This document shows positions 12,207-24,129 of a stretch of DNA of 64,000 nt, piece by piece. The notes below the pieces were generated by a model. That model saw only the letters and a list, made by a program, of their open reading frames with translations. It ran no database searches and was not told the DNA's origin. The first letter of the stretch is position 1; every line of letters starts with the position of its first letter. Source of the DNA: a bacterium (GTDB lineage Bacteria > Bacillota > Bacilli > Lactobacillales > Streptococcaceae); NCBI GenBank assembly GCA_905221545.1, contig CAJNDO010000003.1:62001-126000 (forward strand), written 5' to 3'. Both the position numbers and the translations under genes were made by a program.

Positions 12207-15200
12207 CTAGATCGCTTCTGTGACAAAGCTACGGCTTTCAAGTACCTTAAGCATGGCATTAGCTGTATCTAGGGCTGTAAAGAGGGGTACACCATGTTCA
12301 ATGGCTGAACGGCGGATTTGCTCACCATCTTCGTCAGCAGTTCGTTTGGTTCCCACTGTGTTAATGATAGCTTGGATTCTTCCTTTGCGAACAAAGCTTG
12401 GGATATCCTGATCGTCATCACCAATCTTACCAACAGGTTGGGCTTGTAATCCATGACTAGCAAAGAAGGCTGCTGTCCCTTCTGTCGCAAGGATTCCATA
12501 ACCAATATTTTGGAAACGACGAGCCAAGTCCAAAGCTTCTTCTTTAGCATCATCAGCAATGGTAAAGACTACATTTCCAAAGGTTGGCAAGTGAAGGTAA
12601 GAAGCTTCAAAGGCCTTATAGAGAGCTTTTTCCAAAGTAGTATCAGAACCCATAACTTCACCTGTTGACTTCATTTCAGGACCAAGCAAGCTGTCTACCT
12701 TGGCTAGTTTCGTAAAGGAGAAAACAGGTGCCTTGATATGAACACGAGTGCTTTCAGGGTAAAGTCCATCTTGGTAACCAAGTTCTTCAAGATTTTGACC
12801 AAGAATGAGCTTAGTCGCTACTTGAGCCATAGGAATATTGGTTACCTTAGAAAGGAATGGAACTGTACGGCTGGCACGTGGATTGACTTCAATAACGTAG
12901 ACTTTTTCATCCTTGATGACAAACTGGATGTTCATCATTCCAAGGCAGTTAAGACCGATTGCTAGGCGTTTAGTATAGTCTGCGATTGTTTCTTGCACCT
13001 TTTGAGACAAGGTTTGTGGTGGATAAACGGCCATTGAGTCACCTGAGTGGACACCGGCACGTTCGATATGTTCCATGATGCCAGGAATAAGGACATTTTC
13101 TCCGTCTGAAATAGCATCAACTTCACACTCTTGCCCAACGATGTAAGAGTCAACAAGAACTGGGTGATCTGGGCTAGCCTTAACAGCAGTTCGCATGTAA
13201 GAACGAAGGTCTTCTTCGTTTTCGACGATTTCCATAGCACGTCCACCCAAGACATAAGATGGACGAACAAGGACTGGGAAACCAATCTTGCGAGCTGCAA
13301 GAACAGCTTCTTCTTCATTGGTAGCCGTTTGACCAGGTGGCTGTGGAATATCCAAGTCTTTCAGAGCTTGCTCAAAGAGGTCACGGTCTTCGGCACGATC
13401 TAAGTCAGCAACTTGTGTACCAAGGATGGTCACACCTGCTTTGGCTAATGGTTCAGCAAGGTTAATGGCTGTTTGACCACCAAACTGAACGATTACCCCT
13501 TTTGGTTGCTCTAAGTCGATAACATTCATAACGTCTTCGAATGTCAATGGTTCAAAGTAGAGCTTGTCAGACACAGAGAAGTCTGTTGAAACTGTCTCTG
13601 GGTTTGAATTCATGATAATAGCTTCATAACCAGCAGCCTGGATAGCCTTAACCGAGTGAACAGTTGCGTAGTCAAATTCAACCCCTTGACCGATACGGAT
13701 TGGACCTGAACCTAGAACTAGGACGGATTCCTTATCAGACTTGATAGATTCATTTTCCCATCCATAGGTTGAATAGAAGTATGGTGTTTCAGAGTCGAAC
13801 TCTGCCGCACAGGTATCAACCATCTTGTAAACTGGGACAATCTTATTTTCCAAACGAAGTTGGCGAACTTGGTCTGCTGTCGTTTTCCATAATTCCGCAA
13901 TCTTACGGTCTGAGAAACCATTGAGTTTGGCTGTTTTCAAAACTTCTAGATCTTGTGGATGGGCACCCAACTCCTGCTCGATTTCAAAGATATGCAAGAG
14001 TTTATCAAGGTAAAAGATATCAATTTTTGTAAGCTCAGCGATTTCCTCTGGTGTGTAACCACGGCGAATAGCTTCTGACACATAGAAGAGACGGTCATCT
14101 TGGGCTTTCACAACCTTTTCAATCAAGGCATCATCAGAAACTGCTGCAAGTTCCGGCATTTCATTGTGATGAACGCCAATTTCAAGTGAACGACAAGCTT
14201 TGAGAAGTGACTCCTCGATGTTACGACCAATCGCCATAACTTCTCCAGTTGCCTTCATTTGGGTACCAAGACGACGTTCACCCTTTTCAAACTTGTCAAA
14301 TGGGAAACGTGGAATCTTGGCAACGACGTAGTCAAGGGCTGGCTCAAACATGGCGTAGGTTGAACCTGTGACTGGGTTGATAACCTCATCCAAGGTCAAA
14401 CCAACGGCAATCTTAGCAGCTAACTTAGCAATCGGATAACCTGTCGCCTTAGAAGCAAGGGCTGAAGAACGCGATACACGTGGGTTTACTTCGATGACAT
14501 AGTACTTGAAGCTGTGTGGATCAAGAGCTAGCTGAACGTTACATCCACCTTCAATTTTGAGGGCACGAATGATGCTCAAGCTCGCATCACGTAGCATTTG
14601 GTTTTCATAGTCGGACATGGTTTGCGCAGGGGCAAATACAATAGAATCTCCTGTGTGAATCCCAACTGGGTCAAAGTTTTCCATGTTACAAACAACCAAA
14701 GCATTGTCAGCTGAGTCACGCATCACTTCGTACTCAATTTCCTTGAAACCTGCGATTGAACGTTCAATCAAACATTGGGTAACAGGTGACAATTTCAACC
14801 CATTTTCAGCAATTTCACGCAATTCTTCCTCATTGGCACACATACCACCACCAGTACCACCTAGGGTAAAGGCTGGACGGACAATGACTGGGTAACCAAT
14901 TGTCGCTGCAAAAGCAACTGCTTCTTCTACTGTGTTGACAATTTCAGACTCTGGAATTGGTTGGTTCAATTCTTCCATCAATTGTTTAAAGAGGTCACGA
15001 TCCTCAGCTTGGTCAATGGCAGATAATTTAGTTCCCAGAAGTTCGACACCGAGCTCATCAAGAATACCGTTTTTAGACAATTCCATGGCCATATTGAGCC
15101 CTGTTTGACCACCAAGCGTTGGCAGTAAGGCATCTGGACGTTCCTTACGAAGAATACGTGTCACAAACTCAAGTGTAATTGGTTCGATGTAAACTTTGTC

Positions 15201-15383
15201 CGCAATCTCCTTGTCCGTCATGATGGTTGCAGGGTTTGAGTTAACCAAGACAACCTCATAACCTTCCTCTTTCAACGACAAGCAAGCCTGGGTCCCCGCG
15301 TAGTCAAACTCAGCAGCCTGACCAATAATAATCGGACCAGAACCAATCACCATAATTTTTTGAATATCAGTACGTTTAGGCAT
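12207..15383 (-). CDS. carB: Carbamoyl-phosphate synthase, large subunit
   Basis: Makes carbamoyl phosphate from bicarbonate, ammonia (from CarA) and two ATP, feeding pyrimidine and arginine synthesis. The 1058-residue protein has the two homologous halves, [19 protein letters not shown] near the start and [19 protein letters not shown] near residue 560, each with an ATP-grasp module, then a C-terminal MGS-type allosteric domain. The start [11 protein letters not shown] is canonical, yet no Shine-Dalgarno sequence lies in the 40 bases before it. It is separated from carA by 312 bp of structured sequence with a PyrR-like loop. Confidence 0.97.
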
Positions 15384-15695
15384 TTATAAGATATTAAGGG
15401 CGTCAAGCGGACAAAGCTAAAATAGGAGTTATGACGAAGAACTGTCAGTTCTAGGAATAACTATCTTTTTAGCACAGTCCGTAGCCCGTATTCAGTTTAG
15501 CAAATACGGACCACCCTTCTCCTTTCTATTCGTCGCCTCACAGAGCGACATTAAATAAGATACAAAGGACGAATAGAAAGCGATTGAACTTTAGGAAACC
15601 AAGGAAGGATTGACAATCCAAGTTGGTTTCTCTAAATTCCGAGCTTTCCGTCCGTGTTCAGTTACATAAATTCTCCGACGAGCTTTTACTCGTTC
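15384..15695 (-). promoter_or_regulatory. Structured carA-carB intergenic leader with PyrR-like loop
   Basis: 312 bp inside the operon, transcribed on the minus strand, holding a series of stems. In transcript order: 15693-15678 (5-bp hairpin), 15630-15595 (8+6 bp), 15579-15568 with 15534-15523 (12 bp perfect), 15549-15532 (GTCG-loop-CGAC), 15509-15486 (7 bp), and 15461-15428 (outer GTTAT/ATAAC, inner AGAACTG/CAGTTCT). The loop CTCTGTGAGG at 15545-15536 closely matches the PyrR-binding loops of the pyrR and uraA leaders here (TCCCGTGAGG), each closed by a 4-bp stem. Inference: a PyrR-responsive element controlling carB separately. No clear U-run terminator follows it. Confidence 0.6.
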
Positions 15696-16775
15696 TTAGT
15701 TTGATTGTTTAAAAGCTTCCATCATCTCGATAAACTCGTCAAATAGGTAGCTTGCATCGTGTGGACCAGGGGCTGCGTCTGGGTGGTATTGAACAGAGAA
15801 AGCAGGTTGGTATCTGTGACGCACACCTTCCACTGACTTGTCATTGATTTCTTCGTGGGTGATAATCAAGTGTTCTGGCAAATCCTCACGGCTGACTGCA
15901 TAACCGTGGTTCTGGCTAGTAAAGTCTACACGGCCTGTAGCAATCTCACGTACAGCGTGGTTAAATCCACGGTGACCAAATTTCATCTTGTAAGTCTTAG
16001 CACCATTTGCCATGGCAAAGAGTTGGTGACCCATACAAATACCGAAGATTGGAATTTTTCCTTGCACACCACGAATCATGTCCAGTGCTTGGGGAACATC
16101 TTCTGGATTACCAGGACCATTTGACAACATAACTCCGTCAGGATTAAGGTGAAGAATTTCTTCCGCCGTTGTTGAATACGGAACAACCGTCACGTTACAA
16201 TTACGCTTAGAAAGTTCTCGTAGGATTGAGTGCTTGAGACCAAAATCCACTAGCACCACACTCAAACCAACTCCTGGAGCTGGATAGGAAGTTTTAGTAG
16301 AAACCTGCTTGATATTATCTGTCGGCAAGACTGTTGCTTGAAGCTGGTCCGTCACATGGTCCATACTGTCCCCAACATGGGTCAAGGTTGCACGCATGGT
16401 ACCATGCTTACGGATAATCTTGGTAAGAGCACGGGTATCAATCCCTGAAATACCCGGAATTTTCTTGGCTTTCAAAAATTCATCCAAGGTCATTTGGTTT
16501 CGCCAGTTGCTTGCTCTACGTGCTTCTTCGAAAACAACGACTCCCTTACAAGTTGGAATAATGGATTCGTAGTCATCACGGTTAATGCCATAATTTCCCA
16601 CCAAAGGATAGGTAAAGGTCAAGATTTGTCCATTATAAGACTGGTCTGTAATGGATTCTTGGTAGCCGGTCATCCCTGTATTAAAGACGATTTCGCCTGT
16701 TACATCAATATCTGCTCCGAAGGCCTTGCCTTCAAAAACTGTGCCATCTTCTAATACTAGAAGTCTTTTTGTCAT
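15696..16775 (-). CDS. carA: Carbamoyl-phosphate synthase, small subunit (glutaminase)
   Basis: Hydrolyses glutamine and channels ammonia to CarB. The 359-residue protein has an N-terminal CPSase small-chain domain ([26 protein letters not shown]) and a C-terminal class I amidotransferase domain with the nucleophilic cysteine in [13 protein letters not shown] and the His/Glu pair region [13 protein letters not shown]. Third gene of pyrR-pyrB-carA-carB, 49 bases after pyrB. Confidence 0.97.
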
Positions 16776-16824
16776 ATTCTCACCTCTCGTGGACGCTCAC
16801 TGGCGTCTTTTAACGTCTTGTGTT

Positions 16825-17766: not shown

Positions 17767-18425
<659 letters not shown>

Positions 18426-18497
18426 AGGAATATTTAGTTATCAATTACTATAGCACAAAGCAAGCCTAAAATCAAGCAAAAACTTTTGATACCCATC

Positions 18498-19699: not shown

Positions 19700-20041
19700 T
19701 ATACCATGAAAAGGCTACAAATCAGCCCACCAAACTTTGTAATTAAAATTGAATTTTTTAATATGTTTATTACTATATTTTTTGGTACTATACTAAAGGA
19801 GGATGCTCACATAGAAGACAAATTTTGAGAGTTTATAGCTTGAAATTCCCAGTTTTCTGTTGACAAAATTTCCTTAAAGGTATAGGATAAGGGTACTAAT
19901 ACTCGGAGGTAAGGGAGACATGAACAACTAAGTCTATCAAATAAAGAAACTTTATTTAGTAGATCTTGTTTTTGTCTCTTTTTGTGTGCTCTTTTATGCT
20001 CTTTTTCTGGCATGTTAATAGAGTTTTTTTGACATAGAATT
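19700..20041. other. Intergenic stretch with no confident gene
   Basis: About 340 bp between the DUF177 gene and the terminator-like hairpin ahead of the ABC-F gene. On the plus strand two ribosome-site-like sequences precede extremely short frames: AAAGGAGG then ATG CTC ACA TAG near 19803, and CGGAGGTAAGGGAGAC then ATG AAC AAC TAA near 19920. An AT-rich TATACT-like box precedes the first. A 68-codon minus-strand frame (19807-20013) has no family match I know. It may be a decayed gene. Confidence 0.4.
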
Positions 20042-23966: not shown

Positions 23967-24129
23967 TTTACAAAGTTTGTAATTTTTGCTATACTATCAC
24001 AAGCAAAGGTTTTTAATGTCATCCCGTGAGGTGACGAAGACGCAGAAATATTTGAAACTCTTTAAAATCTAAATTTTAAAGAAGTTTTACTCTGAGGGCC
24101 TATTGCTGTAAAATAATGGGCTCTTTTTT
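23967..24129 (+). promoter_or_regulatory. Promoter and PyrR attenuator of uraA
   Basis: A strong promoter TTTACA-N17-TATACT occupies 23967-23995. The PyrR-binding loop GTCA-TCCCGTGAGG-TGAC follows at 24018-24035. At 24094-24129 GAGGGCCTATT pairs with ATAATGGGCTC and runs into TTTTTT, an intrinsic terminator. The uracil permease is thus turned off by PyrR when pyrimidines are plentiful. Confidence 0.9.

Follow-up and report, generated by a model that had tools for sequence, protein, structure and literature searches.

The closest described systems to the locus analysed here are the pyr attenuator (RF00515), PyrR repression in Mycobacterium smegmatis, where PyrR acts on translation, and carB of Lactococcus, which has a PyrR leader site of its own; in Bacillus, the PyrR consensus is ARUCCNGNGAGGYU. 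Lactococcus carB is transcribed as an operon of its own, alongside further pyr operons (PMC10986495). The uracil-responsive operon of TIGR4 is named SP_1278-1276, with carB not included (PMC6296669), and RegPrecise, as cited, assigns carB (SP_1275) to the PyrR regulon with the entry '1 of 1', a one-gene PyrR unit, which implies an earlier computed PyrR assignment of carB (PMC12323649). A later paper counts SP_1275 within the pyr operon (PMC10942264), and for D39V the operon is written pyrRB-carAB, with four annotated PyrR sites, none of them at carB, and a luciferase fusion, pyrRB-carA-luc, that is transcriptional (PMC6212727). Since carB is counted in the pyr operon by these last two accounts, separate control of carB is not established.

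Short structured repeats are also known from streptococci. BOX, RUP and SPRITE are described as hardly occurring beyond S. pneumoniae and S. mitis, with kin of BOX in S. suis (PMC3049150). RNA structure between a Shine-Dalgarno (SD) motif and its AUG is described for phage T4 genes 38 and 25, with spacers of 22-27 nt (PMC3014915). A Streptococcus RNA candidate, ScRE, is tabulated as possibly cis-regulatory with no Rfam number (PMC2864571).

Here we analysed a 64,000-nucleotide stretch of a Streptococcaceae genome (the window), in which carA and carB are each preceded by a PyrR-type hairpin. The carB hairpin resembles the RF00515 attenuator in its CNGNGA hexaloop, upper stem, UUUAA-type internal loop, lower stem and downstream pyr genes; unlike the attenuator, it has no terminator, abuts the SD motif, varies at its closing pairs and draws no model match at E 10. 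By analogy with M. smegmatis, a PyrR hairpin at the ribosome-binding site would block translation, but the phylum is another, and the hairpins stand within an operon that has a leader attenuator, at two consecutive genes. As in Lactococcus, carB would have its own, here putative, pyrimidine control, exerted there on a separate transcription unit and here at an intercistronic site.

The carB hairpin is followed by a second element, a dispersed repeat that is short and structured like BOX, RUP and SPRITE; it is set apart from them, going by their descriptions, in that it occurs in 279/284 Streptococcus genomes, has weaker kin elsewhere in Lactobacillales and often lies between SD and AUG. This position recalls T4 genes 38 and 25 (31/99 repeat copies in four genomes), whereas the repeat spacers are about 100-160 nt, belong to a repeat family at many genes and are known here from sequence alone. 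ScRE may be an existing description of this repeat. A literature search found no published PyrR hairpin at carA or carB and no description of the repeat in the portions of text covered.

PyrR-type hairpins at carB and carA

The 312-nt carA-carB gap reads, 5' to 3' on the minus strand from 15695 to 15384, as repeat copy 1, PyrR-type hairpin, SD motif and repeat copy 2, followed by the carB ATG at 15383 (Table 1), an ATG that aligned at residue 1 in 80/80 loci. Folded as a whole, the gap reaches -99.9 kcal/mol against a shuffle mean of -72.6 (z -5.26) and is more stable than 100/100 shuffles.

Table 1. Features of the window (positions in the window; SD, Shine-Dalgarno)
Feature	Position	Strand	Description and basis
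carB, carbamoyl phosphate synthase large subunit	12207..15383	-	start codon 15383-15381; ORF; NCBIfam PRK05294, 1627 bits
Repeat copy 2 (core), between carB SD and AUG	15387..15495	-	cmsearch 119.2 bits, E 5e-28; copy in the model's training set
5' extension of copy 2	15496..15518	-	fold
carB SD, AAAGGAG	15519..15525	-	directly 3' of the PyrR-type hairpin; sequence, same position in relatives
carB PyrR-type hairpin	15526..15558	-	upper stem 15550-15544/15537-15531, hexaloop 15543-15538; sequence, descriptor, covariation
carB hairpin, other parts	internal loop 15553-15551; lower stem 15558-15554/15530-15526	-	
13-bp complementarity	15522..15580	-	15580-15568 with 15534-15522; 5' arm within repeat copy 1; sequence, fold
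Repeat copy 1, diverged	15556..15661	-	directly upstream of the PyrR-type hairpin, 3-nt overlap with its lower stem; cmsearch 53.2 bits, E 6e-11
carA, carbamoyl phosphate synthase small subunit	15696..16775	-	ORF; NCBIfam PRK12838, 502 bits
carA SD, GAGAGG	16783..16788	-	adjoins the carA hairpin, shares G16788; sequence
carA PyrR-type hairpin	16788..16815	-	CGU-UAAAA-GACGC-CAGUGA-GCGUC-C-ACG; loop from 16802; descriptor
pyrR, the regulator gene itself	17767..18288	-	NCBIfam PRK05205.1-4, 302 bits
pyrR leader, classical PyrR attenuator (RF00515)	18300..18432	-	61.6 bits
uraA leader, PyrR-type element (RF02437, SpF44)	24016..24110	+	Rfam match

The initial annotation had placed a probable third PyrR-responsive RNA in this gap, inside the operon, drawn as a 4-bp stem with a 10-nt loop at 15549-15532. 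The loop sequence and its coordinates are correct, but GUCG-CUCUGUGAGG-CGAC is better drawn as a GUCGCU/GGCGAC stem of 6 bp (7 with U15550.G15531) closing the hexaloop CUGUGA; beneath the internal loop UAA, of the UUUAA type, a lower stem UAUU/AAUA ends at the carB SD. The loop thus has the CNGNGA form, as does CAGUGA at carA, and the same plan fits two leaders, that of pyrR (loop from 18414) and that of uraA (loop from 24024), the latter a PyrR site in the D39V annotation (PMC6212727). A descriptor comprising a CNGNGA loop, an upper stem of at least 5 bp, a lower stem of at least 3 bp and TTAA, run on both strands of the 64-kb window, matches four places (the uraA leader, the pyrR leader and the carB and carA hairpins), against a mean of 0.12 and a maximum of 1 in 60 dinucleotide shuffles, which makes chance improbable; omitting TTAA and demanding a lower stem of at least 4 bp leaves three places (carA excluded), against a mean of 0.62 and a maximum of 4. 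The carB site is therefore a real PyrR-type RNA inside the operon, but at least the fourth such hairpin in the window, and the description of the gap had been incomplete, missing the carA hairpin and the two repeat copies that fill most of what remains.

Other measures are less distinctive. Folding energy does not set the carB hairpin and its flanks apart (z -1.43; 20/200 shuffles fold as well), and the PyrR covariance model, which had been proposed as a check, gave no support: over 15200-15900, RF00515 yields no hit at E values up to 10. The sole PyrR-related Rfam model matching the gap is RF02437, that of the uraA leader, at 21 bits (E 0.35; cut-off 70). Two closing pairs of the carB hairpin (CUC.../GGC) deviate from the Bacillus consensus; pyrR leaders vary at the closing pairs too, with UCUAUC/GAUAGA in locus L033 and CUGUU/AACAG in L040. 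Elsewhere in the window, an Rfam match to the SpF43 sRNA lies at 19895-19993 (+; 117 bits).

The carA hairpin has a 3-bp lower stem and ends 12 nt before the ATG. One regular expression found this form in 53/111 upstream regions, in 18 distinct forms, with 29 of the 58 misses outside Streptococcus; in these relatives the hairpin is followed by the SD and, 10-14 nt past its end, by an ATG.

A switch had also been proposed, in which a perfect 12-bp stem and the loop stem would exclude one another. The complementarity is present and is in fact 13 bp, but folding predictions for the whole gap assign it a probability of about 0.005, while the PyrR stem reaches about 0.99; these values reverse, and the helix is predicted to win, when the sequence upstream of 15600 is removed. 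Among hairpins followed by AAAGGAG, an upstream helix of at least 12 bp onto the 3' arm occurs in 8/65. Little conserved and disfavoured in the whole-gap fold, the helix was rejected as a conserved switch.

Conservation and covariation of the hairpin

With carA as query, 80 loci were retained; these are counts of loci, not of independent genomes, some of which appear under two locus identifiers. In streptococci the carA-carB gap ranges from 23 to 826 nt. Counting a hairpin where a stem of at least 5 bp is preceded by TTAA, 63/74 locus entries with gaps longer than 40 nt (one from Floricoccus) carry the hairpin, 34 of them twice and 29 once, and 11 have none; besides the window, 56 of the 66 distinct gap sequences of this length contain at least one and 10 do not. 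The hairpin is absent in 5/5 loci of S. anginosus, S. sanguinis and S. gordonii, whose gaps are 23-27 nt.

Covariation was assessed in two ways. In a flank-anchored test, TTTAA(T/A) and (A/G)AATAGAAAG were fixed and neither loop nor pairing was demanded; CNGNGA nevertheless stands at the centre of 27 of the 28 distinct 18-mers (the remaining one has CAUAGA), and the six stem pairs are formed in 96.4% of cases, compared with 68.2% (maximum 78.6% in 1000) when the 3' halves are re-dealt. In 44 distinct hairpins, selected by loop letters and at least 5/7 pairs, covariation is 0.518 versus 0.212 in shuffles and double-change cells number 80 versus 23, with 0/500 shuffles reaching either value; a shift by a single column makes the signal collapse. 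Two coarser measures are unremarkable in this set (pairs with double change, 44/500; pair types, 175/500), and the lower stem beneath UUUAA, of the UAUU/AAUA type, is 98.9% paired. The covariation among relatives that the initial annotation had suggested looking for is thus found in both sets, and sequence comparison across streptococci indicates a stem that covaries within a constant loop and constant flanks.

A pattern of the whole element (loop letters and flanks, no pairing demanded) occurs in 153/284 Streptococcus genomes, with up to 5 copies per genome, and its reverse in none; all 30 loci returned from the matches in these 153 genomes lie at carA or carB.

In the carA-carB gaps, SD-proximal hairpin stems behave as swapping alleles between identical flanks (GUCG in 25 and GGCA in 22 of 64 counted), and genome G111 has a hybrid, broken stem. 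Tandem hairpins, or the stretch preceding one, are separated by modules made up of a closing stem, ACUAG, a hairpin and CGUCGG (L001, L003, L004, L026, L027, L029, L041, L098), and gap lengths shift stepwise between close strains. In S. anginosus (L031:8880-9060), two PyrR-type hairpins lie downstream of carB; by eye, the first is followed by a terminator-like hairpin, and the second adjoins the SD of an MFS-transporter-like frame, so that attenuator and SD-hairpin seem to be paired on one gene.

A dispersed structured repeat between SD and start codon

At carB, 135 nt separate SD and AUG owing to a copy of a dispersed, folded RNA repeat that occupies the spacer, and this repeat is a less expected find than the PyrR-type site. 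The SD-to-AUG region folds with z -4.70. In the predicted fold, the 5' extension of copy 2 can enclose the repeat by pairing AAGGGUG (15518-15512) with CGCCCUU (15402-15396), and would supply the 5' arm of a hairpin CCGUAUU/AAUACGG. The motif GGGUGGUCCG in this extension was considered as T-box-like, a reading rejected because the motif is not conserved in relatives. At carA and carB, 61 distinct SD-ATG spacers were found, 95-202 nt long, of which 33 belong to one subtype, 27 to a second and one to neither, and three loci (L028, L031, L032) have only GGAGAAAA(T/A)(A/C) or similar in this position.

A first model, R1, was built from 21 of 28 representatives, seven being left out as near-duplicates or poorly alignable; covariation in its alignment is 0.464 versus 0.171, with pair types not above shuffles, and its search yielded the 279 matching Streptococcus genomes, many with at least 13 scored places. 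The second, R2, draws on 92 matches in 62 loci (67 distinct), in an alignment fitted to the structure, and shows double changes at 21/21 core pairs, with covariation of 0.704 versus 0.177; its search gave 17-30 copies per genome in six genomes. A structure-fitted alignment of 98 distinct copies from four genomes is 96.7% paired, with 546 double-change cells, covariation of 0.708 versus 0.195 and compensatory change at 20/21 core pairs. Slid controls of the R2 and 98-copy alignments drop to 0.05-0.14. No Rfam family reaches its cut-off over the repeat in the window, and none overlaps it at E 0.1 in 15 loci.

In an order-level search 82/295 genomes match, those outside the 284 Streptococcus genomes weakly (best 2.7e-9); at class level 16/250 match at E 1e-5, 15 of the 16 within the genus. 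Copies akin to the repeat, bearing TTGAGCTGCG...CCGCATCTT and frequently arranged head to tail, occur outside the genus at loci L209-L238 (G285, G306, G402). By eye, a conserved AGAU could form a pseudoknot with an AUCU of the repeat, at positions that hardly vary. Also by eye, the repeat tip in the 826-nt gap of L083 contains roughly six direct repeats and a stretch resembling BOX, and therefore tolerates several hundred inserted bases.

Placement was surveyed for 99 copies in genomes G070, G146, G083 and G098. Where an SD motif begins 5-38 nt before the core and a start codon follows the core after 0-5 nt, the arrangement was counted as SD-repeat-start; on this definition 31 copies lie from SD to start (32 less L310, a TTG frame inside a tandem that was dropped as spurious), 6 upstream of an SD, 21 antisense, 12 in tandem and 28 elsewhere, with 1 spurious. 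The start codon of a long frame occurs within 20 nt on the 3' side of 42/99 copies, against 1/99 in the control (5' side, other strand). The antisense copies lie 0-4 nt past the stop codon of the convergent gene, and the 3' end of the repeat is therefore found at gene borders of either kind.

By best NCBIfam match, the downstream genes are prfA, alaS, parC, cshA, dnaJ, prmA, thrS, deoD, sufB, proS, mutM (fpg), purN, uvrA, an acetyltransferase-type E2 and a methyltransferase, one having no match; most of these matches fall under the curated whole-protein cut-offs because the frames are partial. Some species have the repeat in the SD-AUG gap of parC and prmA, and in others this gap is empty; copies occupy the same spot in many species. 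Inspection by eye found the parC gap filled in 21/30 loci, empty in 7 (L334 perhaps with a remnant) and not located in 2, and the prmA gap filled in 19/30 and empty in 11; a regular expression gave 20 and 11 filled loci, missing repeats that end in GTATTTTA or are cut by the 60-nt view. Two shortened parC copies (L321, L323) retain two hairpins, again by eye.

These data bear on whether the repeat serves expression at all. It could be a parasitic insertion, tolerated between SD and AUG with no role in expression, as its multicopy and tandem occurrence, the antisense copies just past stop codons and the 6 copies upstream of an SD would suggest. The path from SD to AUG through the RNAfold minimum-free-energy structure is also no shorter than in shuffled sequences (median 17.5 in 32 cases versus 15.6), so that bridging of the spacer is not shown by these folds. 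Set against a purely parasitic origin are the 21 core pairs, retained with compensatory change in R2 and nearly all in the four-genome set, the recurrence of parC and prmA copies at one spot in many species and the two hairpins kept by the shortened copies. On balance we lean slightly against mere parasitism. That the repeat is instead built for the SD-AUG gap, folding so that ribosomes start across 100-160 nt and giving its genes regulable initiation regions, is a possibility we advance tentatively and with some doubt; joined to the PyrR hairpin at carA and carB, it would form a composite translational switch.

Probable translational control and its alternatives

No terminator-like site was found on the minus strand at 15300-15800, which bears out the earlier statement that a classic terminator is lacking. 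In L028 and L032, which lack the repeat, the hairpin runs directly into GGAG, 5-6 nt before the ATG, and in these loci, in L045 and at carA no more than about 20 nt separate it from the start codon. Because the hairpin meets SD and ATG in this way, and the carA ATG follows so closely, there is no room for a terminator in these places; the ribosome site or the stability of the RNA would therefore be the target of the hairpin, and hardly termination. As neither the carA nor the carB hairpin has a terminator, a block by UMP-PyrR on the translation of both genes is the likeliest mode. The location is that of a translational operator: the carB SD (15525-15519) follows directly on the hairpin end at 15526, and at carA the two share G16788. 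The fold predicted for the window's own sequence leaves the carB SD largely base-paired before any PyrR binds (probability of being unpaired, about 0.05).

We thus regard it as rather likely that the carA and carB hairpins are a pair of putative PyrR operators acting at translation, besides attenuation at the pyrR leader; of the two levels that the initial annotation had left open, translation or RNA stability, the former is probable from the abutting SD and the lack of a terminator. PyrR binding, repression and initiation across the repeat are steps that we infer from this arrangement. When UMP is plentiful, PyrR-UMP, with PyrR encoded in the same operon, would bind the hairpin that ends at the SD and exclude ribosomes from carA and carB, while the leader attenuator would restrict transcription of the entire operon. 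When UMP is low, PyrR would release the hairpin and the SD would open; at carB, ribosomes would then start across the folded repeat between SD and AUG. A translational site fits the TIGR4 operon call without carB and the one-gene carB unit of RegPrecise.

The same elements could be read otherwise. PyrR might act on the stability or processing of the RNA, if its binding or the folded gap led to cleavage of carB mRNA from the operon and a different rate of decay; the very stable gap structures (z -5.26) and the one published operon call that ends at carA (PMC6296669) would agree with this. The constant contact of hairpin and SD is better explained by translation, and we consider such processing unlikely. 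Intercistronic attenuators exist in B. subtilis, and PyrR at the carA-carB hairpin could likewise halt RNA polymerase before carB, just as the pyrR leader of S. pneumoniae works by attenuation (PMC6296669); with no minus-strand terminator-like site in the gap, and about 20 nt or less from hairpin to start codon in L028, L032, L045 and at carA, this is more improbable still. The least probable reading, which we rate as very improbable, is that the CNGNGA hairpins are the site of another protein or a repeat in their own right. Their rigid flanks, the stem alleles swapped between close strains and the presence of up to five copies in a genome would suit it, but all 30 of the 30 loci examined are at carA or carB, and the hairpins have the same loop, internal loop and lower stem as the leaders of pyrR and uraA.

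If the carA and carB hairpins are translational operators, PyrR, the textbook attenuation protein, would also work on translation in Firmicutes, gene by gene within an operon. Carbamoyl phosphate synthase, which through its product also supplies arginine synthesis, would then have both its subunits settable apart from pyrB. The occurrence of the repeat at parC, prmA, dnaJ, deoD, thrS, alaS, prfA, carA and carB, in turn, makes the reach of the ribosome from SD to start codon, in both distance and structure, open to test.
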